64,000 nt of DNA from Bacteroidota bacterium (GTDB taxonomy: Bacteria > Bacteroidota > Ignavibacteria > Kapaibacteriales > NICIL-2), in the NCBI GenBank assembly GCA_019695345.1, contig JAIBAE010000002.1, positions 1 through 64,000 on the forward strand, written 5' to 3'. The notes beneath the pieces are model-generated. The model made no database searches. It saw only the letters and a list, made by a program, of their open reading frames with translations, and was not told the DNA's origin. The translations under genes and the position numbers were made by a program. Each line of letters opens with the position of its first letter. The first letter of the stretch is position 1. Of the stretch, positions 3,614-53,907 are shown piece after piece.

Positions 3614-3708
3614 AAATACTACCCCTTTAAACCTAAGTAATTGAATGTGAGTTCTTACCCGCAAGTGCACTTCATTATTTTTCCCATTACAATACAGAAA
3701 GGACTACT

Positions 3709-4935
3709 ATGAGAGTAGCAGTTATACTATTGTTTGTGTGTTTGGTATGGAGTGAAATGGCTGCACAGCGAAACTGCGAGAACGATTCAACAGGACTTAT
3801 TCCACTAGTAGATTTACAAGGTAAACAATGGCGTGGGTTTACCGGAGGTTTGTATTACAACGGTCTTAACACACGTCCGGCAGACCACAAAAACAAAGCG
3901 TTACAACAAGCGGCAGCAATTAAACCATTAGATGGAAATGGTATGCAATCGGCAACCGGAAAAATTGTGTGGATTGGAGTAGGTGCATCCAACCCGCGCA
4001 CAGAGTTTTTGCGCTTTAGTAATCAGATAGATACAATGGGCAAAAAGAATCCTGCCTTGAAGCTCATCAACACGTGTATTGGCGGACAGGGAATCCAGAA
4101 GATGAATGTTGCAACCGACAACTACTGGAAACAAGCGGAAAAACAATTAGCAGATTCCGGACTTACAAACAAACAAGTGCAAATTGCCTGGATAGAAACC
4201 GACAACACCCAAACAGCAGATACAACATTCCCCAAAGCCGCAGAAACATTACGCGATGAATTCCGAACACTGTTACAAACAATGCGTACGTTATATCCAA
4301 ACCTAAAACTCTGCTACATTACTGCTCGTGCATATAGCGGATTTGTTGACCTTGATGCAGGTGCAACTGTTGGCAGAGGGTTGTTACATCCTCGCGATTA
4401 CTACAACGGGTGGTCTATCAAAATGTTAATTGAAAAACAAATGAACGGCGACGCAGAGTACGCATTTGAAGGAGCTTTGGCAACCATTCCGTTTATAACG
4501 TGGGGTTCGTACCATTGGACAGATGGTTCCAAACAACGGAACGACGGTTTTAGCATACAATGTTCCACCGATGTAGGTGGTGACGGCTTGCATCTTTCCG
4601 AAGCCGGTGAAGTAAAAATGGGGGCACAAATGTTTGCATATTTCACTACCGATGAAACAACAGCACCTTGGTTGTATAAACAAAACACAAGCTCGGTTAC
4701 TGAAGATGAGCATACCACACTTGCACTACACATTACACCGCAACCGGCAACTGAGAATCTTACCCTAAACAACATTCAGGTTGGTGTTCCAATCCGCATA
4801 ACAGATATACTTGGCAATACAATTTGGAGCGGAGTATCACAGCCACAACAAATTGTACCAACGCAGACATGGTCAAGCGGGATGTATATTCTGCAATACG
4901 GCGTGCACGCCCAACCTTTCTGCGTGCAACATTAG
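3709..4935 (+). CDS. Secreted SGNH/GDSL-like hydrolase with T9SS sorting domain
   Basis: A 408-aa protein with a signal peptide (MRVAVILLFVCLVWSEMAAQ). The body shows an SGNH-like layout: IVWIGVGASNPRTEF around residues 85-100 could be block I with Ser, NTCIGGQGI near 124 resembles the Gly/Asn oxyanion blocks, and GDGLHLSEAGEVKMG near 290 carries the Asp and His of block V. Such enzymes cleave esters of carbohydrates or lipids; the substrate cannot be read. The C-terminus has SSVTEDE, ITPQPATENLTL and TWSSGMYILQ, a type A T9SS domain. The classical GDS triplet is replaced by GAS, so the enzyme call is moderate. Confidence 0.7.
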   Translation: MRVAVILLFVCLVWSEMAAQRNCENDSTGLIPLVDLQGKQWRGFTGGLYYNGLNTRPADHKNKALQQAAAIKPLDGNGMQSATGKIVWIGVGASNPRTEFLRFSNQIDTMGKKNPALKLINTCIGGQGIQKMNVATDNYWKQAEKQLADSGLTNKQVQIAWIETDNTQTADTTFPKAAETLRDEFRTLLQTMRTLYPNLKLCYITARAYSGFVDLDAGATVGRGLLHPRDYYNGWSIKMLIEKQMNGDAEYAFEGALATIPFITWGSYHWTDGSKQRNDGFSIQCSTDVGGDGLHLSEAGEVKMGAQMFAYFTTDETTAPWLYKQNTSSVTEDEHTTLALHITPQPATENLTLNNIQVGVPIRITDILGNTIWSGVSQPQQIVPTQTWSSGMYILQYGVHAQPFCVQH

Positions 4936-27031: not shown

Positions 27032-29194
27032 CTATTGCTTTATTATCCGCAACGTTCCCTGCACACCTTTACCCGAAGATACTGTTAATATGTACACACC
27101 CGGACTTACATTTTTTAACGGTAGCGTTATTGTATTGCTACCCTTAGAGAACGTAGTCTGCAAAAGGTTGTTGGTTAACGAGCCGGTTACATCGTACAAC
27201 GATATGTTATACGAGCCACCTTCCGATGCAGTAAAACTGAACGTAGCTGCATCGCCGGCTGTCGGGTTTGGAAATATACTTAGCCCGCGAATCGTTCCCT
27301 GCGGTATGCTACACATATCCAACATTGTTTCCGATTGCGTTTTATGTAATTGGGCACATGCTTGTTCCGGTAACAACTCTCCTTTTATCACTCGCTCCAC
27401 CATATTCAACTCTTCCATTAATTGAAGGCGGTAACGGTCGGGCAAACGTTCAACAAAATCACGGTTAGGAACAAAATATAAATCAATCATCAATACATGG
27501 TAATGTGCGCTATCTGCCCCTGCTTTTGGTAAATACGAATTGGGCTGAGCATCGTTTACCGTTCCAAGCATAACACGCACCGGAATTGTTGAGCCTGTGT
27601 TTACAACTGTACCATCGGGCATACGTGCTGTAAACTCTTTATCCATTCCTTTAAGCAACGGCGAGGAACCAGCAATCTTTTGATTAATACAACGGCTTTT
27701 TCCGTAATCACCGTACCTTGTATCAAGTGTTAGCTGATAATCATTCATCGCGTATCCAACAGGTGATATAGTACTGTAAGAATCGTAGTTCCACCCGGTG
27801 TATTTCCATGTTTCCGTTTTATCTTTACATCCTAACTCGCCATGAACGTCGTTCTTAATATAAACAGTAGGCGCATCTATTGTATAACCATACTTTTCTT
27901 GTAGCTCTTTCTTTTGTTTTTGCAACATAGCGGCTCTGCGTTGGTATCTGCGCTGTTCAGTTTCATCGGTTGTTTGTGGTTCGGTAAGGGTTGGGGTAAA
28001 ATCATCCATGGTAAAGTCAATAGATGTACCTTGTACCTTTATACCATACGCCTCTAATTCTTTAGCAGTAAGTGTAATATGTTTTATGCCGGCAATAGAA
28101 GACTCAACAGGAATCTGTTCTTCTTCAACAACAGTCGAAACACCTGTGTATGGTATATCAATCATATTCTCAGTAAGCATTGGTTCTAAGTCTGCGTACT
28201 GTTTTCTGTGCTCCGGTGTTAACGCTTGTAAAAAGCGTTTTGTGGGCAGGTAGTAAAACACAGCAACGTTCTTTTCCTCTTTATCAGACATATCCACAAA
28301 CACCGGAACAAGATATTTAATGTATTTGTAATCGCGTTTCTTTAGCACTACTGCTTTGCGAACAAATATGTCTTGTTCATCGTTTGCCGACATATCCTTC
28401 ATAAACTGACTAAACTCTCTGCGTAACTCACGCGCCACATCTTGCGATTGCACATACGGGGAATGGTCGGTTGTACTCATTGATAACGAAACACTTCCTT
28501 CACTTTCCGATGAATACATAGCACATACATACGGAGCAAACCCTTTGGTTTTTGTTACATCCCACTGTGGGTTATACGGCAAAGGGTCGGTTGTAGAGTT
28601 ATTAGGCTTTAGTGTTGTATTAGCACGTAGTATCAATGGTGTTACATCCAACGGATATCCAAGTTTACTAATCATCACTTTAGCTTGCGGTGGTGCATCT
28701 TTCTCGTTAAACTGTTCTTCTATTACTACCTGCAACTCTTTGTTGTTTTGTGTAATACCCAACGCCTTCATTTCGTCGGGCGTAAGTTTTAATATAGGTA
28801 CGTGGGTAGCCGGAATTGTTGGTGTTGCGGGTGCCGCACCTTTTTCTGTTAGCGCAATACCTGTATTTGGTGCAACATTGGTCGGTGTATTTTTCTCTTT
28901 TGTTACTGTTGTAACTGTTTGTTTAGTACCGGCGGTTGTGCCGGACTGCGCAGCGGTATTTAGCGGTGCCACAGGCGATAGCCAAAGCCACACGCCAACA
29001 GCAACAGCACTTAAAACGGATGCCATAATAATACCTTTTTGTAATTGTGTTAATGAATGCGGCACATGCGGCGGAGTCTGCACAGAGCTACCTTCTACCT
29101 GTTCCACAATACTGCGCAGTTCATTGCGGGATACAAGCGGGGTAGCACTCTTCGCCGAGCGTGCCTTGTTTATGTATGTTTCTAATGATTTCAT
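27032..29194 (-). CDS. Membrane-anchored large protein with T9SS-type C-terminal domain, downstream of an ECF sigma gene
   Basis: A 720-aa protein. Residues 1-50 are polar, about 54-76 form a TM segment (SVLSAVAVGVWLWLSPV), then a Thr/Pro-rich spacer and about 500 residues of unknown fold. The last 85 residues (GLSIFPNPTAGDAATFSF, NISLYDVTGSL, VSPGVYILTVSSG) match a T9SS type A domain. Position 37 bp after an ECF sigma gene is the usual place for an anti-sigma factor, and the short cytosolic N-terminus could bind the sigma. A TM after 50 residues plus a T9SS domain is an odd mix; an internal ATG at residue 57 would turn the TM into a plain signal peptide. Confidence 0.75.
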   Translation of the reverse strand: MKSLETYINKARSAKSATPLVSRNELRSIVEQVEGSSVQTPPHVPHSLTQLQKGIIMASVLSAVAVGVWLWLSPVAPLNTAAQSGTTAGTKQTVTTVTKEKNTPTNVAPNTGIALTEKGAAPATPTIPATHVPILKLTPDEMKALGITQNNKELQVVIEEQFNEKDAPPQAKVMISKLGYPLDVTPLILRANTTLKPNNSTTDPLPYNPQWDVTKTKGFAPYVCAMYSSESEGSVSLSMSTTDHSPYVQSQDVARELRREFSQFMKDMSANDEQDIFVRKAVVLKKRDYKYIKYLVPVFVDMSDKEEKNVAVFYYLPTKRFLQALTPEHRKQYADLEPMLTENMIDIPYTGVSTVVEEEQIPVESSIAGIKHITLTAKELEAYGIKVQGTSIDFTMDDFTPTLTEPQTTDETEQRRYQRRAAMLQKQKKELQEKYGYTIDAPTVYIKNDVHGELGCKDKTETWKYTGWNYDSYSTISPVGYAMNDYQLTLDTRYGDYGKSRCINQKIAGSSPLLKGMDKEFTARMPDGTVVNTGSTIPVRVMLGTVNDAQPNSYLPKAGADSAHYHVLMIDLYFVPNRDFVERLPDRYRLQLMEELNMVERVIKGELLPEQACAQLHKTQSETMLDMCSIPQGTIRGLSIFPNPTAGDAATFSFTASEGGSYNISLYDVTGSLTNNLLQTTFSKGSNTITLPLKNVSPGVYILTVSSGKGVQGTLRIIKQ

Positions 29195-29231
29195 AGTGTT
29201 ATCGATTTCCGTAGTAAAAAACCATCTATCG

Positions 29232-29789
29232 TTACAATGCCCATACTGTTCGTGATTTTGCGGACTCGGTTGTATGTGCGTTGTTAGGTTCGGGGTTATC
29301 TACACCAAGATATTTTCGTATCAGGTATTTGGAACGGTAAATCCTTACTTTAATATTTGCTATACTAATTCCGTGCGTTTGCTGAATTTCTTTATGTGTA
29401 AAACCAAGCAGCTCTGCCATAATAAAAATCTCGCGGTATTGTTCCGGCAAGGCATCAATGGCATTATACAGTTGCTGAACATCATAAGCGTCATCGGGCT
29501 GAATGCCACCGCAATACAGCTCGGTAATTTCATCGGGTGCAACGGTGCTAATGCGGCTACGCTTTGCTTTTTGTTTGTAAAACGTACGCGAAGCAACGGT
29601 AAACAGATAACTTAAAAACGCTTCATCGTGCTCTATGCTGTCAAAACGTTCGTAACAAGCGGCAACGGTTTCGCTTATCAGTTCTTTAGCATCCTCGCGG
29701 TTTCTCGTCATGCTCAGGGCAAAACGCTCTAACCGCTCGTATTCTCTATCAAGCAATTCTAAAAACCGTTGTTGTTTCTGTTGGTACAT
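29232..29789 (-). CDS. ECF-type RNA polymerase sigma factor
   Basis: A 185-aa sigma-70 family protein lacking region 3. Region 2 spans about residues 12-80 (EYERLERFALSMTRNREDAKELI, LSYLFTVASRTFYKQKAK), region 4 about 108-160 (IDALPEQYREIFIMAELLGF, HKEIQQTHGISIANIKVRIYR) with the DNA-binding HTH. It heads an operon with the membrane/T9SS-CTD protein, which is probably its regulator. It may respond to envelope or secretion conditions, as inferred from that partner. Confidence 0.93.
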   Translation of the reverse strand: MYQQKQQRFLELLDREYERLERFALSMTRNREDAKELISETVAACYERFDSIEHDEAFLSYLFTVASRTFYKQKAKRSRISTVAPDEITELYCGGIQPDDAYDVQQLYNAIDALPEQYREIFIMAELLGFTHKEIQQTHGISIANIKVRIYRSKYLIRKYLGVDNPEPNNAHTTESAKSRTVWAL

Positions 29790-29873
29790 AAAACAGGATT
29801 ATTGCACAAAATCAAATTTGGGAGGTAAGTGCCGCAGCTCCCACAATGGTTACACAATACTACAAAATATTTT

Positions 29874-29936
29874 TTTGCTATCGCCGGACCGCACCTAACG
29901 GCTTCCTCTATATAGCGTTCACCTGCGGGAAAGGAA
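29874..29936 (+). repeat. R1 dispersed repeat, copy 10
   Basis: TTTGCTATCGCCGGACCGCACC, then CCTGCGGGAAAGG. It lies 85 bp upstream of the sigma factor start and in the opposite direction to that gene. Confidence 0.75.
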
Positions 29937-30028
29937 GTATAAGAATATAGGCGGTGTGTCAAATAGTAGAATATCACTTAAAAAAAAAGATTGTCTCATC
30001 AAGGTATTGGCAGACTACTACACAATAT

Positions 30029-30994
30029 TTATAATTCTAAATCAGGATATATTATTTCTTTGTTTCTAACCTTCTCAATCAGAATATTAGGTATTTCGTT
30101 ATCTTCTTCTATAAATTTCCAAAAATAAAGTTGTCCTAAAAGTTTTTCTTTATACAGCGGATCAAAGTCTACATTATATGGATTCACTTTATGGTTATAC
30201 TTTAGATACTTATATACATTTAGCCTTAATTCCCTTTTATAGTTTCGAGTTAACGATATATTCTTTTCCGTAACTGATAATCCTGTCACAATCTTTTTCT
30301 TGTGGTATCCTATAACTAACAATTCCTTTTTATTATTTACTATTAATCCTTCTTGTTCAACAATTGTTTTTATTAACTCTCTGCATTTTGTAGAAATATA
30401 CTCACCTGAAAAGAACAAGTCATCTGCATATCGAGAATAGGTCAGGTTTTCTTTTGTTGAAAGTCCGGATAATCTTTTGTCAAGCTTTGAGGTAACGATA
30501 TTACTTAGTAATGGACTTGTTGGTGCACCTTGTGGGATACCATTGTTGCATAGACATAACTTTGTTAACATGTAGCTAACACCATCTGAATACCCACAAT
30601 TTCGGAATACTCTTATTACTTTTTTGAATCCAATATTCTCAAAGAAATTCTCCAAGTCTATTTTGTAAAAGACTTTGGTTCCTATATGCCTCATTGCATT
30701 ATCTTTGATTGAAACTCCTGACTTATAGGAATAACAATAGTTATTACCATCAACATTACGTAGAATTTGTTCTAGTATAAATCTTTGTACTTTATATAAA
30801 TTAGGATATGGAGAATGTATAACTCTAACTCCATCTGAATTACGTTTTGGTAAGGAAAAAATACGGTAGTGATTTTCGCTACTAAAAATCATTCCCGCTA
30901 TTTTCTTTATTGGGATCTCTGTAGCTATTGATAAATCTCTAATTGATTTAATATTTGGGTAAATCTCGTTCAAAGTACCACGGTAATAGTTCAT
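30029..30994 (-). CDS. Retron reverse transcriptase
   Basis: A 321-aa RT that would copy the msd part of the adjacent RNA into branched msDNA. Seen in order: retron-specific motif X NAMRH (residues 99-103, NAxxH), catalytic Asp in YKIDLENFF (Asp113), GIPQGAPTSPLLSN (152-165), SRYADD with the catalytic pair Asp191-Asp192, and retron motif Y VTGL (236-239) in the thumb region. There is no maturase or endonuclease domain, so it is not a group II intron RT. The ATG at 30994 lies 25 bp past the a2 arm of the RNA. Length is typical for retron RTs. Confidence 0.94.
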   Translation of the reverse strand: MNYYRGTLNEIYPNIKSIRDLSIATEIPIKKIAGMIFSSENHYRIFSLPKRNSDGVRVIHSPYPNLYKVQRFILEQILRNVDGNNYCYSYKSGVSIKDNAMRHIGTKVFYKIDLENFFENIGFKKVIRVFRNCGYSDGVSYMLTKLCLCNNGIPQGAPTSPLLSNIVTSKLDKRLSGLSTKENLTYSRYADDLFFSGEYISTKCRELIKTIVEQEGLIVNNKKELLVIGYHKKKIVTGLSVTEKNISLTRNYKRELRLNVYKYLKYNHKVNPYNVDFDPLYKEKLLGQLYFWKFIEEDNEIPNILIEKVRNKEIIYPDLEL

Positions 30995-31019
30995 GTATAG
31001 TTAAATTCTACCTAATAGA

Positions 31020-31255
31020 AAGGGAATAGTACTACAATTCAAATACAGTTCTCAATGTTGCAATATTTACGTTAGAAATATTGCAACGTATGTACTGTTA
31101 AGTACATGCATTGCAATTATTAGCTGACATCTCGATTACGCACGACCTTGAAGCATAAGCAATGTTTGTTAACATTATTAAGGCTGCAATGATTGACGTT
31201 AATGAGACGTTAATCAAAGAGTCGATACAACTCATAGCACTAGTACTATTCCCTT
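31020..31255 (-). ncRNA. Retron msr-msd RNA
   Basis: Bases 31020-31034 and 31241-31255 are a perfect 15-bp inverted repeat (AAGGGAATAGTACTA), as expected of the a1/a2 arms. On the minus strand the first base inside a1 is G (31240), a candidate branching guanosine. The 5' (msr) half has hairpins at 31191-31215 (9 bp, one mismatch, 7-nt loop) and 31161-31176 (6 bp, TGTT loop). The 3' (msd) half has a perfect 12-bp hairpin at 31057-31087 with a 7-nt loop and another at 31088-31109 (9 bp with one T-G, 4-nt loop). It sits just upstream of the RT gene on the same strand. The msr/msd border is inferred. Confidence 0.85.
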
Positions 31256-31269
31256 CTTTTAGATTATGT

Positions 31270-31506
31270 CTATGGTTTACTAAAATACACTTCTTTATTT
31301 TTTATTAGTTCATACCTTCCTTGTGGTAATATTTGAATTATATTAAAATTTACCTCAATTAACTTATTTGTTTCAAGATATTTTATACCATCTAACAAAG
31401 CACCTATTTCTAAGTTTGAATTGCAATAAACTTGATACAGAGAAATCTCCTGACTGTATTTTATCAATGTACAGAGTATCCTCTTAATAATATAAGTTTC
31501 CATCAT
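31270..31506 (-). CDS. Small winged-helix protein of the retron
   Basis: A 78-aa protein with the order helix (IIKRILCTLIKYSQ), helix-turn-helix (ISLYQVYCNSNLEIGALLDGIKYLETNKL), then a beta wing (IEVNFNIIQILPQGRYELI). This is a minimal winged helix. Its ATG shares one base with the stop of the PRTase-like gene, so translation is coupled. It ends 15 bp before the a1 arm of the retron RNA. By analogy with retron tripartite systems it may bind msDNA or tether and restrain the effector; this is inference. Confidence 0.75.
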   Translation of the reverse strand: MMETYIIKRILCTLIKYSQEISLYQVYCNSNLEIGALLDGIKYLETNKLIEVNFNIIQILPQGRYELIKNKEVYFSKP

Positions 31507-32423
31507 TAACTCATCCGTTGAAAAATTGTATTAATTTTTGATTTATCTTTTTTAAACGGCCACCAAAAAATTGGGAATACATTATCAGATATGTTATTAC
31601 CTTCAAACCAAAACAAAGATTCCGATTTCTTATAACCTAAACTGTAACTTGTTAACGACATCTTTTTATTCTTCTCTTCCAATCCTTTTTCTATATCAAG
31701 CATACATTGAAGATAATGGTTTGTATCAGTTTGATAAAAATCTGAAATACCTCGCAGTATTAAGATACTGCTATAGAGCACCACATTTCTAGTAATTAGT
31801 TCAAAATATGTTTGCTCCATTGCTGCTATTGATAAAACCTTCACTATCACATTTGGTTTATTCAAAATAGTCAGTTTATTTTTAAACCAATGATACTTGC
31901 GCATTATAGTCTCCCCACTTCCAATAAAATCATCAAACAACACTGCAACTTCTCCATCTTTTACTAAATGTACCCCTTGTCCAATAGTGCTTATAAAGTT
32001 TTCATTACTCCATTCATATTTTGCAAATTTGTTCTTTATCTGTTGTAATAATCCTTGTCCTCCATCAATTTTAGTTTCATCGCTAACTGATATTATATAA
32101 CTATTTCCAGCATTAAGATTCCACTCTTTACAGAGTTTGTCTGCTATCATTTCACCAATTCTATCGATTTCTCTACTATCAACTACTCGAAATCTTCTCA
32201 GCAAATCGATTACTAACTTTCTTTGCTCTTCGTTTTCACAATTGTTGTATAAGAAAACAAGTGATGTAGCTTTAGATTGCAGCCACGGTACATTACTGAT
32301 TAATGAAAATATCTCATTGAACTCTTTTTCAGGTAGCTTCTCCATAACTAAAAAATTATTGAAAAATTTCTCAAGCAATATATAGAAGTTATATTTTAGT
32401 AATAATACAAATTTATTACACAA
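31506..32423 (-). CDS. Phosphoribosyltransferase-like retron effector
   Basis: A 305-aa protein. VAVLFDDFIGSGET (acidic pair at residues 164-165, GSGET to 172) matches the PRPP-binding loop of type I phosphoribosyltransferases (hydrophobic-DD-x4-G-x-T pattern). It is preceded by a helical region and a beta strand (YIISVSDETKIDGG) and followed by VIVKVLSIAAMEQ, as in the core sheet. The C-terminus has PIFWWPF. Start is uncertain: ATG at 32423 or at 32345 (MEKLPEKEF); the N-terminal 26 residues are hydrophobic and may not be real. As retron partner it is the likely toxic or nucleotide-modifying effector, by inference. Confidence 0.8.
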   Translation of the reverse strand: MCNKFVLLLKYNFYILLEKFFNNFLVMEKLPEKEFNEIFSLISNVPWLQSKATSLVFLYNNCENEEQRKLVIDLLRRFRVVDSREIDRIGEMIADKLCKEWNLNAGNSYIISVSDETKIDGGQGLLQQIKNKFAKYEWSNENFISTIGQGVHLVKDGEVAVLFDDFIGSGETIMRKYHWFKNKLTILNKPNVIVKVLSIAAMEQTYFELITRNVVLYSSILILRGISDFYQTDTNHYLQCMLDIEKGLEEKNKKMSLTSYSLGYKKSESLFWFEGNNISDNVFPIFWWPFKKDKSKINTIFQRMS

Positions 32424-32589
32424 TAGAATGATAGTTGGAATTGATTTGAATAGTTCTATCTCTAGTAGAATTTTTAAGGCTACAATGGCAATAGCTTATG
32501 AGTATATGGCAAAATACTATTTGATTCTTCCTGCCACAACCGTAAACTAACAGTTATCGTGAGTTGTAGTAGCTAAACACACTTGCTAT

Positions 32590-32750
32590 AGAATGCTATT
32601 GGAACAGAATTTTACCGCAAAGTTCGCTATGGTGGCGCAGAGTTTCCGCAAAGGTATATGCGGTGATTGATTTGTTACCTTGATACTAACCTTTGTGTAC
32701 TTTGCGAAAACCTTTGCGTACTTTGCGGTTACATCCCTTTTATTGTATTG
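32590..32750. repeat. R3 repeat, copy 2
   Basis: Facing CTTTGCG arms as in copy 1 (TTACCGCAAAGTTCGC, GCGCAGAGTTTCCGCAAAGG, TACTTTGCGAAAACC, TACTTTGCGG). It fills most of the 401-bp gap 32424-32824; a degenerate R1 tail ending CAGTTATCGTG lies just before it at 32540-32561. Confidence 0.75.
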
Positions 32751-32822
32751 AATGCGCCGCACAACGTTTGGCTCGCACCGCGTTTGCGCGCTGAAGGGTT
32801 GCTTCGGCAAAAGGTGGGAACA
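32751..32822. repeat. R2 dispersed repeat, copy d
   Basis: GCGCCGCACAACGTTTGGC then TCGCACCGCGTTTGCGCGC and TTGCTTCGGC, GGTGGGAACACC. Directly follows R3, repeating the R3+R2 composite at 25433-25662, and ends 3 bp from the stop codon of the 974-aa gene. Confidence 0.8.
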
Positions 32823-32824
32823 CC

Positions 32825-35749
32825 TTACTCTGCAATTACATGAACGATAATGGTGCGCTGTAAATCTTCGGGAGTTGCTTTTGCATTGCCGCTGCCACGC
32901 TGAACCGAGAAACCAATGCCGGTAAGAGCTGTAAGGTCGCGCGCAAGGTTTTGGGCAATCTGCCGCGAACGCTCGGAGTAGTACCAAATAGTTGGCGATG
33001 TTGCTATTCCTGCCGTACGTTTTTCTACAAGGAATGTGTTGTCATCGAACAGTTGATATTGCGGCTTGGATGAAATGTATTCTACAATTTTATCGTAATA
33101 GACTTTGTTGCTTTGGCTAACCAGACCCATTACGCCAACAAGTTTTATGGAGTTGTCGTTTTCAATTTCTTGGTCGGCACTTAATAATACTGTTGGTTTT
33201 ACTGTAAGGTTGTTTGTGCGGACAATATCTTTTGCTTTTAGCTGAGCGTTGGATGCAAGCGATTGATTTTCGTAGCACCCACTTATAACGCGGAACAGCA
33301 TAGTTTTCTTTTGGTCGTAATACACAATGCGTTTTACGTTTTCCATTCCTGCGTGCAGAAGTTTATCTACTAACGCATTTGCTTCATCTTCGTTTTGATA
33401 TTCGGCAAAGAACACCGTATAACATTTGTTCTCGCGTTCGGGTTGTGGTGTAACTACCGGAACGGCTTTACGTACTTCTTGCTTTTGCTTTGGTTGTTCA
33501 GTAAGTGATTGTGTTGGTGCATCCTTGCGTACTTCTGTTTTCTTTGTTTGAGGTTGCTGTTGCGTTGTAGTTTCATCGTAACCAACTGACGGGTTTACCG
33601 GCGGTGCAACCTGTCGGTTATACAACACTGCGCAGGGCAATCCGGTTAACGATACAAACCTACCCGAAGCAACTTTTAACGGGTCGGGTTGTTCTATAAC
33701 TCCGGGAACACGTACTATAACATTTGCCGAGCGGCGTTTGCTGTAATCGTCTGTTTGGTTGCCTGCATTTTTTACTTGTTGTTGTATTGCTTTGCCCATT
33801 GCAACAACGCGCAGCAGCGGCGGGTTGTGGTATTTGAGTTTGCGGTATTCGGGCACACGTTCCGTCCAGACGGAATCGAGTAATAACGCGGTGTAATAAG
33901 CACGTACATCGCTGAGCAGTTGATTCCCCGATGCGCCCGATTTACTAAATGGGGTATTCGATTTTAAGATTCCGTTTGGTATGTACTGTGTTTTCTTTTC
34001 AAGCTCATTCAACTTCACCCACGATTTATTGAAGTCGATTGTTTTACCTGTGTACAAACATGCGTCGTTAATTCCGCGAGGATCGGTCCAGCCAATTACT
34101 TCAACATCAACTACCTTGTTATCGCGCAGTGCAGTTTGTACGCACGCACGTTGCAACGCTGATTTCATGCTTGCAATGTACCGTGTAACTGCGCTATCAA
34201 CTTTATGCGCCCATTGTAGTTTGCCTTCAGTATCGTTTAATTCTTTTGCGGGTATACACAAACCACCGTTGCGCAAGGCATCAACCGTTGGTGCCGTAAA
34301 GTTGAGTTTGTAGCTGTAAATGTCACCATCATCGCATTTCTTAACGGGCTTCTTAAATTCAACAGCAGTACATGTTGTATCCATAAATACCGATTGGCAA
34401 GGAATATACTTTGCAAACTGCACCGATGTTGGACACCAATAACATGTTAAAAAGAATTGCACTTCGGTAATAGGGAAGTTCTGTACGCACTGCTTATCGG
34501 TTAAGATTGCTTTATCCCATACGTACATTGTGTGCGAATAATTCTTTGCTGCCAACACATCCACCAATACGGTATCTGTTTCTGCAATAAACTCTTTGCC
34601 CTGCATACTCGGTGCAGATGGTTTTAAGATTATCTCGCGGTAACGGTAATCGTCGCACGGGTCGTTGGAAACAGCCCGTTGCATTACAAGAACAGTTTTG
34701 CCTTGGTTATCTAACTTAAACGAGCCCTTGGAATTTGTTTGTCTGTCGGTTGCAGTTAGGTCGGTTGTGCACGGGATAATCATGTCTTCCCATTCTTCAA
34801 CATACTTGTTAAACTCGCGTGTGCGTAACAACACCTGAATAGGAATAGTATCATTTCCTTGCCCAATGCGTGTTGTATAAATATCATAATCTTTAGTTTT
34901 ACCACCTTCACCACGGTTGGATGAAAATATCAGCCACGCACCACCCGCCGAAAGCGTTGGCACAGCTTCATCCGAGCCACGTTGGTTAACGCCTGCAAAC
35001 GGAACCGGTTCTTCGGGTGGCATAGGTTTGCCTGTTTCTTCGTCAATGCGGATGCGGTAAATATCAAGGTCGCCATCGCGGTTGGTAGAGAAATATAAAA
35101 AGCCATCGCTTCCCAAAAACGGAGCTTCTTCTTTAAAGTTTAAAGTGTTTACATCGGAGAGTGGTTGCGGTGCGCTCCATCCGCTTCCGCTACGGATAGA
35201 ATAATAGATATTTGTTAAGCCCGTGCCGGGGTTATCGCGCGTAGTAGCAAAAAACAACAAGTTCCCATCTTTAGATAATGTAGGTGAGTCGTCCCAATAC
35301 TCCGAACACAATTCATCCATTCTCCGCACATTCCACACACCATTCACATTTCTCAACTCATATAAATCATTATCCATATTCTTGCCGTTGTACAAACGGT
35401 TCGATATAAAAATACCATAGGCAGTATCGCAGTAGGAAAACGTAGGGCTTCCATCTAAATACACACGCGCCGCACTTTCTTCTTGTTGGTTTACTGGCGC
35501 GGGCAGAACATCAACTGCACCTGCAACCGAGCCACTACCGCAACCAATCCGTACCAAATGTCGCGAGCGTGAATTCTTCATTCCATTCGAGGTATTCAAC
35601 CAAATTTCCATTCCGTTTTTTGTAGTACGGAACGCCGTAGCATAATCATCGCCTTTGGTACACAACGGCGAGTATTTCTGCACTTGCGCCGTAACAGAAA
35701 CACTACAAACAAACAGAACACTTAGTATCACATAAACAACTGTTTTCAT
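32825..35749 (-). CDS. Large envelope protein: PD40 propeller, divergent OmpA-like and SPOR-like domains
   Basis: A 974-aa protein with signal peptide (MKTVVYVILSVLFVCSVSVTAQ). Residues about 90-310 have PD40/TolB-type units (LSKDGNLLFFATTRDNPG, LYFSTNRDGDLDIYR, WLIFSSNRGEGG). Around 555-690 a divergent OmpA C-terminal domain is suggested by VEVIGWTDPRG, LLSDVRAYYTALLLD and SKRRSANVIVRV, with inserts. Around 790-870 CYTVFFAEYQNEDEANALVDKL resembles SPOR. PD40+OmpA proteins tie outer-membrane machines, including T9SS parts, to peptidoglycan in relatives; such a role is plausible here. It is monocistronic. Confidence 0.8.
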   Translation of the reverse strand: MKTVVYVILSVLFVCSVSVTAQVQKYSPLCTKGDDYATAFRTTKNGMEIWLNTSNGMKNSRSRHLVRIGCGSGSVAGAVDVLPAPVNQQEESAARVYLDGSPTFSYCDTAYGIFISNRLYNGKNMDNDLYELRNVNGVWNVRRMDELCSEYWDDSPTLSKDGNLLFFATTRDNPGTGLTNIYYSIRSGSGWSAPQPLSDVNTLNFKEEAPFLGSDGFLYFSTNRDGDLDIYRIRIDEETGKPMPPEEPVPFAGVNQRGSDEAVPTLSAGGAWLIFSSNRGEGGKTKDYDIYTTRIGQGNDTIPIQVLLRTREFNKYVEEWEDMIIPCTTDLTATDRQTNSKGSFKLDNQGKTVLVMQRAVSNDPCDDYRYREIILKPSAPSMQGKEFIAETDTVLVDVLAAKNYSHTMYVWDKAILTDKQCVQNFPITEVQFFLTCYWCPTSVQFAKYIPCQSVFMDTTCTAVEFKKPVKKCDDGDIYSYKLNFTAPTVDALRNGGLCIPAKELNDTEGKLQWAHKVDSAVTRYIASMKSALQRACVQTALRDNKVVDVEVIGWTDPRGINDACLYTGKTIDFNKSWVKLNELEKKTQYIPNGILKSNTPFSKSGASGNQLLSDVRAYYTALLLDSVWTERVPEYRKLKYHNPPLLRVVAMGKAIQQQVKNAGNQTDDYSKRRSANVIVRVPGVIEQPDPLKVASGRFVSLTGLPCAVLYNRQVAPPVNPSVGYDETTTQQQPQTKKTEVRKDAPTQSLTEQPKQKQEVRKAVPVVTPQPERENKCYTVFFAEYQNEDEANALVDKLLHAGMENVKRIVYYDQKKTMLFRVISGCYENQSLASNAQLKAKDIVRTNNLTVKPTVLLSADQEIENDNSIKLVGVMGLVSQSNKVYYDKIVEYISSKPQYQLFDDNTFLVEKRTAGIATSPTIWYYSERSRQIAQNLARDLTALTGIGFSVQRGSGNAKATPEDLQRTIIVHVIAE

Positions 35750-45016: not shown

Positions 45017-45087
45017 CACGATAACCGTTGTTGCATAGTTGAGATTCTTCCCCACAGAGTGTGGTAATACCATTGTGCTTATCGCAG
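45017..45087 (-). repeat. R1 dispersed repeat, copy 17 (partial)
   Basis: Only the second half and tail are clear: GGGGAAGAATCTCAACTATG and CAACAACGGTTATCGTG on the minus strand, shared with copy 16. It overlaps the last codons of the RNA ligase gene. Confidence 0.6.
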
Positions 45088-45840
45088 AGTCCGTTCATAA
45101 TCTTCAAATCTAACTTTAACAATTTTTGTCCGATTTTCATTTCTTAAAACAACACCTTCCGATCTCTTTATAGCACTTTCGGACAAAGCAACATTTGTAT
45201 ATGGTATATACTTTCTCAGATTCTCTAAAACAACTTTATGAGACATATCGCCCAGGTCAAATTCAATTAACGGTACTAAGTCGAAATTTGGAAATTGGTT
45301 TTGTATTTCAGTCCGCGTAAGAAAATTCTGACCATAGATAATTCCATCTTCGGTTTCTCGTTCACGCCATTTTGAAATATCGTGTTGCGACATTTCCAGT
45401 ATTGACAAATCGTTGTAAACAGCAACATCAAAAACACGGAAACCATTTTTATCTTGCCCATACCATTTGGAATTAGCCGATGTTTTTCCGCCATAAAACT
45501 CGCCATAAATCACAGTAAACTTTTCAGGTTGTGGAACTATAATATTTAATTCTTGTAGTCCATCAACAATACCTTGCGCAGTGTCAAAATATAAGTCGTG
45601 TGAATGATGTAAAATAAACTCCCTTGCACCAATAAGATATTCAGAACCATAACATATTATTCTTGCGTTAGTTCCATCAATCTTTTCCGTTGCATACATT
45701 TTCTCGTTTTGAATTGGCGTAGTTAACTCATTTTTTAAGCGTCCCTTTTCGCCTAATTGATGAAGTGTAAGTATTGATGGATACTTTGTAAGAGTGTTAA
45801 TCTTCTCTTTACCAAATTTTGATATTAAATCTCTTATCAT
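45079..45840 (-). CDS. RNA ligase (T4 Rnl2-like nucleotidyltransferase)
   Basis: A 253-aa ligase that seals RNA ends through an enzyme-AMP intermediate. Nucleotidyltransferase motifs in order: I TEKIDGTNARI (catalytic Lys near residue 53), III/IIIa VIYGEFYGG and GFRVFDVAV, IV RSEGVVLRNE, V TKIVKVRFEDY. No C-terminal extra domain follows. Such ligases repair damaged tRNA or other RNA. It is isolated, converging with the 201-aa membrane protein, and ends inside a partial R1. No partner phosphatase or kinase is visible nearby. Confidence 0.9.
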   Translation of the reverse strand: MIRDLISKFGKEKINTLTKYPSILTLHQLGEKGRLKNELTTPIQNEKMYATEKIDGTNARIICYGSEYLIGAREFILHHSHDLYFDTAQGIVDGLQELNIIVPQPEKFTVIYGEFYGGKTSANSKWYGQDKNGFRVFDVAVYNDLSILEMSQHDISKWRERETEDGIIYGQNFLTRTEIQNQFPNFDLVPLIEFDLGDMSHKVVLENLRKYIPYTNVALSESAIKRSEGVVLRNENRTKIVKVRFEDYERTLR

Positions 45841-52056: not shown

Positions 52057-53907
52057 CTATAACTCTATAACTACTTTCTTTATCTCGTATGACTTGTCGT
52101 CCTTCTTAGATAGAATATCTGCTTTTAAGAGATCTCCACAAATTTTCCTCACCTTACGTCCTAAACTCTCATAAGTTGTAGGTTCAATTTCTTTACCGTG
52201 AAGTTGAGAATACAACTCAGGCGTAATTACATTAGGTTTGATTGATTGATTGTTATAATGATTATACCTGTAAACAATATTTAGAACTCGTTTGTGTGCA
52301 TCATCCAATCCAGTTAATGGTTTTCCTGTTTGCTCTTCGATTTGTTTGGTAAAATCAACTAAAGTTAACTCCTTATCCAAAACATAAACAGGAGTTTGTT
52401 CTGAACTTGCAGAAGGGTGTTCTAAGACAAGTCCTGATTGTTTTAAGTCAGAAAGAACATCCAAGTGATTATTGCTCGGACTTAATAAAATTGTGTACCG
52501 GCGTTTTTGATTAAGTCTTTCTGATTTAAGCAAGTACGCTAAAACTAATTTATGCTCTTGGGTTATTTTACCCTCAAGTCGCTCATGTAAATATCCGTTA
52601 AAGGAGTTCATCCATCTCAGTGTTTCATCGTCCATCAGTTTGCCAGATGGAATGACCAAAGAAATAGTGTCTGGAACTGATAAGTCATAATAGGGAACGT
52701 CGATTTGATTTTCCAGACAAACACTAACTAATGTTGCCATGCCTATTCCCTGACTTTCAATCTTGTCAAATGCTTTTAGAACATTCGCAAGTTTTGGGTT
52801 TTTTGTCTCTGGAACTCCAGATATTATTCGTCTTATTTCATTTTTGGTTGAAGTGTCAGTTATCAACATCTTTTGCTTAAAACTGCCAGGATTTTTGATT
52901 TCAATACTTTCTCCAGGATTAATTTTGATAGTGATAAATTTATTCGCGATGTAATCCCTATGAGCAAAAGCGTTGTTTACTACTTCTCGGACTAACTTTT
53001 CAGGGAACTCTGGTTCGCTTCTACCACCGCCAATGTAGCTCCTTCCAACTTTGATATGTCCCCAAACAAATGAGAAAGCATCATCCATCAAATTAATTAC
53101 ATCGTTCTGAGAAATTCTTTTATCTCGTCCAATGTCATTTCCTGTTTCAAAATAGCAATCAACCTCCGCTCTGTATTCAAGATACTGAAACGGCTCTTTG
53201 CCAAATAATAGAAGTCCGAGAACAGTTACAGCACCTTCTGAATTTATACAGTAGCGTCTTGCAAGGAAATCAGCTGCATCTTGAAGGTCTTTCTTAACAG
53301 TTTCCTTTTTACCGGTAGTGTTTATTCTAACAATAAATTGATTGATTTTATCAATATCCAAATCATATATTGTTGCCTTTGCAACTGGGCTAATCTCTTT
53401 TGAATACTCCAACTCAGCTTTGTATTCCCTATGTTGAATAAGCCTTGACTGAGGGATAACCTTATCTTGAGTTAATACACGCTCATAATAAACACCATCA
53501 AACTTCAAATATTTTAGATCTTCACTTAAAGGATGTACTGTTAAAATGGCTAATGTTTTTCCATGAACAGTTCTGTAATCAAAGTCTATGTTTTGAGATA
53601 AATCTGGCAGCACATCGTTGTCATTTCTGAAAAACTTACTTCTAAGCTCTATAAGTCGTCCCTCATTGTTTCTGTCGAAACCCGTAAAATTATATTTCTT
53701 ATTTCGTTCCCTAATACCACAAATTACATAGCCACCGTTGGTGTTAAGATAAGCACATACTGTTTCTTTGAGTGAAGTCCATTCGTTGCCAGATGAAAGG
53801 TCTTTCAGTTCAACAATAGAATCCTCATTATCTTGAAATTGTCCAGTCAAGAGAGTGGTCTCAATTCGTGAAATAGTTTTATTTAGTAAATCGTTTTTGT
53901 CTGTCAT
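52057..53907 (-). CDS. AlbA/Schlafen-type ATP-binding protein, putative regulator
   Basis: A 616-aa protein. The N-terminal AlbA_2/Schlafen domain (residues about 25-140) has SIVELKDLSSGNEWTSLKETV and AYLNTNGGYVICGIRE, the usual ExK...E-x-xAxxNxxGGxxxxG pattern. Around residues 300-400 is a HATPase_c_4-like segment with EKLVREVVNNAFAHRDY and SQGIGMATLVSVCLEN. The remainder is winged-helix-like. Members are annotated as regulators, or sit in defence loci. Base composition is AT-rich relative to neighbours, and it stands alone. Confidence 0.85.
   Translation of the reverse strand: MTDKNDLLNKTISRIETTLLTGQFQDNEDSIVELKDLSSGNEWTSLKETVCAYLNTNGGYVICGIRERNKKYNFTGFDRNNEGRLIELRSKFFRNDNDVLPDLSQNIDFDYRTVHGKTLAILTVHPLSEDLKYLKFDGVYYERVLTQDKVIPQSRLIQHREYKAELEYSKEISPVAKATIYDLDIDKINQFIVRINTTGKKETVKKDLQDAADFLARRYCINSEGAVTVLGLLLFGKEPFQYLEYRAEVDCYFETGNDIGRDKRISQNDVINLMDDAFSFVWGHIKVGRSYIGGGRSEPEFPEKLVREVVNNAFAHRDYIANKFITIKINPGESIEIKNPGSFKQKMLITDTSTKNEIRRIISGVPETKNPKLANVLKAFDKIESQGIGMATLVSVCLENQIDVPYYDLSVPDTISLVIPSGKLMDDETLRWMNSFNGYLHERLEGKITQEHKLVLAYLLKSERLNQKRRYTILLSPSNNHLDVLSDLKQSGLVLEHPSASSEQTPVYVLDKELTLVDFTKQIEEQTGKPLTGLDDAHKRVLNIVYRYNHYNNQSIKPNVITPELYSQLHGKEIEPTTYESLGRKVRKICGDLLKADILSKKDDKSYEIKKVVIEL

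Follow-up and report, generated by a model that had tools for sequence, protein, structure and literature searches.

A type III-A retron with a short winged-helix protein and a short reverse transcriptase in a genome of the Kapaibacteriales

The window considered here, 64,000 nucleotides of contig JAIBAE010000002.1 from a Bacteroidota bacterium (assembly GCA_019695345.1), encodes the parts of a type III-A retron on its minus strand, between positions 30029 and 32345. In the 5' to 3' direction these are a gene for a PRTase-fold protein, a gene for a winged-helix (WH) protein, a gap with a predicted retron RNA, and the gene of the reverse transcriptase (RT). We estimate the probability at about 0.68 that the locus is a complete retron of type III-A, whose PRTase would be held by a complex of RT, msDNA and WH protein until a phage frees it. 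The features are collected in Table 1.

Table 1. Features of the retron locus, with positions in the window.
Feature	Position	Strand	Remarks
Retron RT	30029..30994	-	321 aa, type III-A, short N-terminus
Retron ncRNA (msr-msd)	31020..31255	-	predicted between the a1/a2 arms, from folding, arms and msr model
a2 arm (3' side)	31020..31034	-	pairs with a1; RT start codon follows after 25 nt
Likely msd stem(s), putative	31057..31117	-	two alternative overlapping hairpins
First msr hairpin	31219..31233	-	GAGTTG/CGACTC; from fold and msr comparison
Putative priming guanosine	31240	-	TAG right after a1, invariant in 8 relatives and the window
a1 arm (5' side)	31241..31255	-	15-bp perfect inverted repeat
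Winged-helix partner	31270..31506	-	78 aa; WH_III-A match, predicted wHTH
PRTase-fold effector	31506..32345	-	279 aa from ATG 32345; PRTase_III-A, PF24390, predicted fold

A preliminary description of the same DNA had placed an RT, a PRTase-like protein and a winged-helix protein here, and the open reading frames and the PADLOC profiles agree with it. It had also called the two upstream genes coupled, which is correct, since the PRTase stop and the WH start share one base (TAATG). Its further statement that the retron is complete holds in that all parts can be found, but it had omitted the retron RNA in 30995-31269, and without this RNA completeness was not yet demonstrated. The type III arrangement that it named is confirmed and can be specified as III-A, on the basis of all three PADLOC profiles (RT_III-A 6e-99, WH_III-A 9.8e-7 and PRTase_III-A 2.2e-78) and of the RT clade described below. 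The scheme of retron types is reportedly that of Mestre et al. 2020. The WH gene lies between the PRTase gene and the ncRNA, as in the type III-A arrangement, and an identical order of PRTase, WH, gap and RT was found in 19 relatives (11, then 7 more, and L160), which come from genomes of the phylum, from Pseudomonadota, Bacillota and Thermodesulfobacteriota, and from plasmids and viral contigs.

The RT matches the PADLOC profile RT_III-A with 329 bits, the next best profile being RT_II-A (1.9e-79, 265 bits). It also matches PF00078 (RVT_1) of Pfam, and its score of 233.7 against the St85 family of NCBIfam is just below the cut-off of 235. Solved retron RTs resemble the protein, with Ec86 as the best. 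The motifs NAxxH (99-103), YADD (189-192) and VTG (236-238) are present at the residues given for them in the preliminary description. In an alignment of 12 rows, N99, H103, Y189, A190, D191, D192, T237 and G238 show no or almost no variation, and the identity to the 11 relatives is 27-39%. The position of the RT among retron RTs, a check which that description had proposed, was obtained from a tree of 58 RTs, with L028, L130 and L008 left out as distant or fragments. The window RT falls inside the III-A clade, a group of 29 rows (97/94) that contains all 19 rows with both PRTase and WH and 4 rows with PRTase only. Within it, the RT belongs to a subclade of 12 rows (99/97), 10 of which have PRTase and WH. 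Its branch is long, 1.31.

For the effector, the PRPP motif noted earlier stands, as a PRPP-loop-like LFDDFIGSGET, and so does the fold, but the 305-aa form starting at TTG 32423 is unlikely. The start is probably ATG 32345, because this is the first ATG of the frame and the match to the PRTase_III-A profile (from profile position 3) begins only at residue 32 of this longer form; the 26 extra residues lie outside every profile match. Pfam assigns the protein to PF24390 PRTase-CE (1.3e-17). D138, G142 and G144 are invariant in the 12-row alignment, and the C-terminal NVFPIFWW belongs to a PNNxFPxFWW-like block that is conserved among relatives. The AlphaFold model (pLDDT 78.5) has an extra helical N-terminal region. 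With this model, Foldseek matched OPRT, APRT and HGPRT, with a best E of 2.9e-5 for a partial alignment (query TM ~0.3), and VIA-align matched PyrR/HGPRT, with 4p86_A as the best of many tied rows (Z 13.0, rmsd 2.8, 146 aligned). The profiles and the model comparisons thus support a PRTase fold for the effector of the locus. Two of the outcomes that the preliminary description had named as speaking against it, an RT outside the retron clade and a 305-aa protein without this fold, therefore did not occur. The PRTase profile gave 51 matches in the PDB, with no chain named as retron among them, and in NCBIfam neither the PRTase nor the WH protein has a match.

The small partner had been proposed to be a winged helix, and both the WH_III-A profile and the AlphaFold2 model (pLDDT 83.6) bear this out. 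The model has a wHTH topology, and its structural matches are mostly of MarR type, the best with E 2.9e-3; a search of Pfam gave no match for this protein.

The gap between the WH and RT genes is 275 nt long. The a1/a2 pair in it is the only perfect inverted repeat of at least 14 bp in 29000-33500, and when the gap was shuffled 2000 times with its dinucleotides preserved, no repeat reached 14 bp, the longest being 13 bp. The minimum free energy of the gap RNA is -77.9 kcal/mol, whereas shuffled sequences average -51.4 (z -5.87, reached by 0 of 200 shuffles). When the loci are compared, exact arms of at least 9 nt are seen in 13 of 19, the window included (9 of 12 and 4 of 7), which counts for little, as this length is also attained in 281 of 2000 shuffles of the window gap. 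Arms of at least 12 nt, a length reached by 8 of 2000 shuffles, are found in 7 of the 19, the window having the longest. The beginning of the msr, that is, a TAG after a1, a short hairpin and then TTAA, resembles that of 8 relatives, and the guanosine of this TAG is, judging from other retrons, the putative priming one. The putative msd contains two inverted repeats, 31080-31096/31101-31117 (88%) and 31057-31068/31076-31087 (100%).

A covariance model was built for the msr part only, with 4 base pairs, from the 8 relatives and with the window excluded. Over the 64 kb, the best of its 7 hits is at 31196-31246, on the minus strand and in the expected register, with a weak E of 0.53. Of the loci of 12 other relatives, 3 (L085, L086 and L087) have a hit where it is expected, all with E >1, while its hit in L088 falls elsewhere. 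We regard the hit in the window as support for the ncRNA, not as proof. In an alignment of the whole length, the msd part aligned poorly. A search of Rfam at gathering thresholds returned nothing in the window, so the ncRNA call rests on the arms, the folding and the relatives.

It is important to point out that the locus differs from its relatives in the size of two of its proteins. The comparison covers 19 retrons with PRTase and WH, namely the window and 18 relatives from plasmids, viral contigs and genomes; L104 and L105 were dropped as near-copies of L103. From the collected rows, L140, L141 and L161 were also removed, since they share contigs with L101, L102 and L106. Among the 19, only the window has neither an N-terminal extension of the RT nor a C-terminal tail of the WH protein, two features that come from the present comparison and are not published criteria of type III-A. 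Taking the whole open frame, at least 40 residues precede the HLS-like block of the RT in all 18 relatives, compared to 18 in the window, or 16 from the ATG. Counted from the first Met, the extension is at least 40 residues in 17 of 18; the exception is L087 with 16, whose RT start is unsure because the frame continues upstream with extension-like sequence. From the conserved wing glycine on, the WH protein has 35-65 residues in the 18 relatives, while in the window it ends after 16. A tail motif [FY][ILV]P is found in 17 of the 18, L087 ending in PYI instead; a further relative, L160, has kept both segments, with a different tail motif. The missing segments cannot be hidden in another frame, since only 14 nt separate the WH stop from a1 and only 25 nt separate a2 from the RT start.

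In 8 relatives the PRTase is longer, and its C-terminal part resembles, by eye, a fused WH: L157 (1184-2341), L170 (3462-4697), L178 (303-1586), L131, L137-L139 and L175. L130 was not counted among them, as its frame stops inside the WH-like part. In 7 of the 8, the WH-like part is followed by a similar-looking proline motif (in L175 well before the end), L157 having none. A strict coupling between the WH tail and the RT extension seems unlikely: in L157 the fused PRTase has no obvious YLP tail and the RT extension is kept. Another locus, L092, has a III-A RT with no PRTase match. Next to this RT, at 3693-3839 (minus strand), lies a 49-aa frame that corresponds to the WH tail only, ending in IFVPNQDELFF, with no WH domain. 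It is probably a remnant of a WH protein, a mirror image of the one in the window.

The mechanism that we infer, from the production of msDNA and the formation of a complex to the trigger, the toxic chemistry and the defence itself, would be as follows. Part of the ncRNA would serve the RT as template for an msDNA, which would remain attached to the RNA. By analogy with the type IX retron Kva2, the WH protein probably grips a stem-loop of the msDNA, and the complex of RT, msDNA and WH may keep the PRTase-fold protein from acting. Its release could then, again judging from analogy, be brought about by a phage product, either through binding or modification of the msDNA or through displacement of the WH protein. 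The freed PRTase would stop growth, with the misuse of PRPP or of a nucleotide as the most likely means, and the infected cell would die before the phage can spread. In the literature searched we found neither a toxic chemistry nor a defence for a type III PRTase, and the sources searched gave no type III retron trigger and no solved effector structure.

The absence of the WH tail and the RT extension could leave room for an inactive copy, and the locus may be an active variant reduced to a minimum or a copy in decay. An unlikely version of the former is that the window holds an active minimal III-A retron, from which both segments disappeared together since in the usual complex they contact one another or a shared partner. 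If this were true, the two segments would mark a contact by which the WH protein is usually tethered to the RT, and the window variant would show it to be dispensable or replaced. The opposite scenario, in which the loss of the two segments broke the complex and left a decaying or inactive III-A retron, we consider unlikely. It would agree with the fact that just one of the 19 retrons lacks both segments and with the long branch of the RT, and the apparent WH remnant in L092 points to decay of such loci. However, the catalytic motifs of the RT, the motif of the PRTase and the perfect 15-bp a1/a2 pair are all intact and long open frames persist, while the short distances between the arms and the genes leave no space for a frameshifted remnant.

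Two other explanations concern the role of the WH protein and the neighbourhood as such. The WH protein might be a transcriptional autorepressor of the operon, with the PRTase held by the RT-msDNA alone. Its model does resemble MarR-type repressors, and the tail that might join the complex is absent in the window, but the apparent fusion of WH to PRTase in the 8 relatives suits a subunit of a complex better, and in type IX, according to the available part of PMC13405049, the WH protein is a structural subunit. This makes the autorepressor rather improbable. That the RT lies beside unrelated genes by chance, with no shared function, is hardly credible: III-A-type RTs with no PRTase match do exist (L085, L086 and L091-L093), but the gene order recurs in the 19 relatives, which largely refutes this idea, and the PRTase and WH genes share a base. 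The reading that we prefer is thus still that of a type III-A retron whose PRTase would be held by the RT-msDNA/WH complex.

With regard to the origin of the locus, the AT-rich composition mentioned in the preliminary description is evident: the GC content is 29.7%, compared to 41.4% for the window outside 29801-32830, and lies below that of all other 2395-bp stretches of the window, sampled every 100 bases. Matches to the PRTase are sparse. Among 61 related genomes only the host itself has one, and a sample of the phylum (395 genomes, E 0.001) gave 14 genomes with a match. At E 1e-10, a match is present in 12 of 395 genomes from another order and in 7 of 294 from the class. On account of the low GC and these sparse matches (1 of 61 and 14 of 395), horizontal gain, as suggested earlier, is plausible, but no clean empty insertion site was found in 6 stretches of relatives, one of which (L231) is only 3.1 kb long. 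On one side of the locus, the genes at 32825, 36272 and 38503 occur together in 4 of the 6 stretches, while the sigma-factor side (27032 and 29232) is matched in none of them.

Relatives of the PRTase gave no match in the phages searched, and in plasmids they gave 3 records, the same 3 with L050 as query and 1 with L089. In IMG/VR, none was found with the single PRTase protein and 6 loci with the PRTase alignment, while the RT alignment yielded at least 80 loci, with a PRTase match in 8 of the best 80. Among 13 stretches taken from PRTase-bearing genomes, 5 gave no RT.

Some further observations were made in the collected loci and in the remainder of the window. In a Bacteroides plasmid (L085:3668-4834) and a gut phage contig (L086:4165-5298) there is a III-A-like RT with 347-348 bits to RT_III-A, located in the former just downstream of a DUF5686-annotated gene (the latter being similar by eye); neither has a PRTase or WH match, and in both a weak msr-model hit lies immediately upstream of the RT. 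In L093 (3692-5906), from a genome of the phylum, a III-A RT is preceded by open frames of 178 and 126 aa with no PRTase or WH match. A plasmid of Priestia megaterium (L083:2382-8082) carries a III-A-like PRTase-WH-RT set followed, on the opposite strand, by genes annotated as a retron-system HNH endonuclease and an AAA ATPase, so that two retron effector modules may adjoin here. Elsewhere in the window, an AT-rich stretch encodes at 52057-53907 a 616-aa protein with a Schlafen/AlbA_2 domain and a weak PADLOC similarity to Argonaute-associated proteins, and the AT-rich stretch at 44-46 kb encodes an RNA-ligase-family protein (45079-45840, PF09414) with no match in PADLOC. PF18962 domains (type IX secretion sorting) are also encoded in the window and point to a lineage like that of the Bacteroidota.

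The effector of type III retrons can be recognised, but III-A retrons as a kind are poorly understood; how retron PRTases act was unknown as of 2022, according to the available part of PMC9122126. A compact natural version such as this one, with a 78-aa WH protein and a 321-aa RT, would be a good start for structure work, and a comparison with full-length relatives would reveal the roles of the WH tail and the RT extension.

The fold and the PRPP-loop-like motif of the effector are shared with the housekeeping type I PRTases HGPRT, PyrR and OPRT, from which it differs in its extra helical N-terminal region, the PNNxFPxFWW-like C-terminal block and the setting in a retron operon. A PRTase-type presumed toxic effector is also part of the DprA+PRTase system of P2-like prophages. 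The available part of PMC9122126 describes that system as DprA and PRTase and names no RT or ncRNA, and the PF24390 match given above is that of the PRTase of the window.

The Kva2 retron of type IX resembles the locus in having, in one operon, a retron RT, an ncRNA, a WH protein and a separate toxic effector. In the part of PMC13405049 at hand, its WH protein is described to cradle the tip of the msDNA stem-loop, with the toxic effector sequestered at the core and released when a phage HTH protein binds the msDNA. That effector is a HEPN RNase, whereas the one in the window has a PRTase fold, and the 11 sequence matches of a WH profile (A7) in the PDB include no Kva2 chain.

Closest to the locus are the type III-A (III-A1) retrons Bpu1 and Ppe1, which, as far as the available part of PMC12548924 describes them, have the PRTase, the WH protein, the ncRNA, a III-A RT and the a1/a2 arms found here. 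The same part of that source reports that Retron-Bpu1 makes RT-DNA in E. coli and gave no defence against 12 phages, overexpression included, and that transformation with Ppe1 failed, presumably, in the view of its authors, because of toxicity. It also describes Retron-Sda1, where HipA-like and DUF3037 genes accompany a III-A1-like RT; the defence tested there did not involve the RT. Type III-A is thus already known, and what is new here is a member with a trimmed WH protein and a trimmed RT, which lacks the RT extension and the WH tail of the 18 relatives compared, a set separate from Bpu1 and Ppe1.
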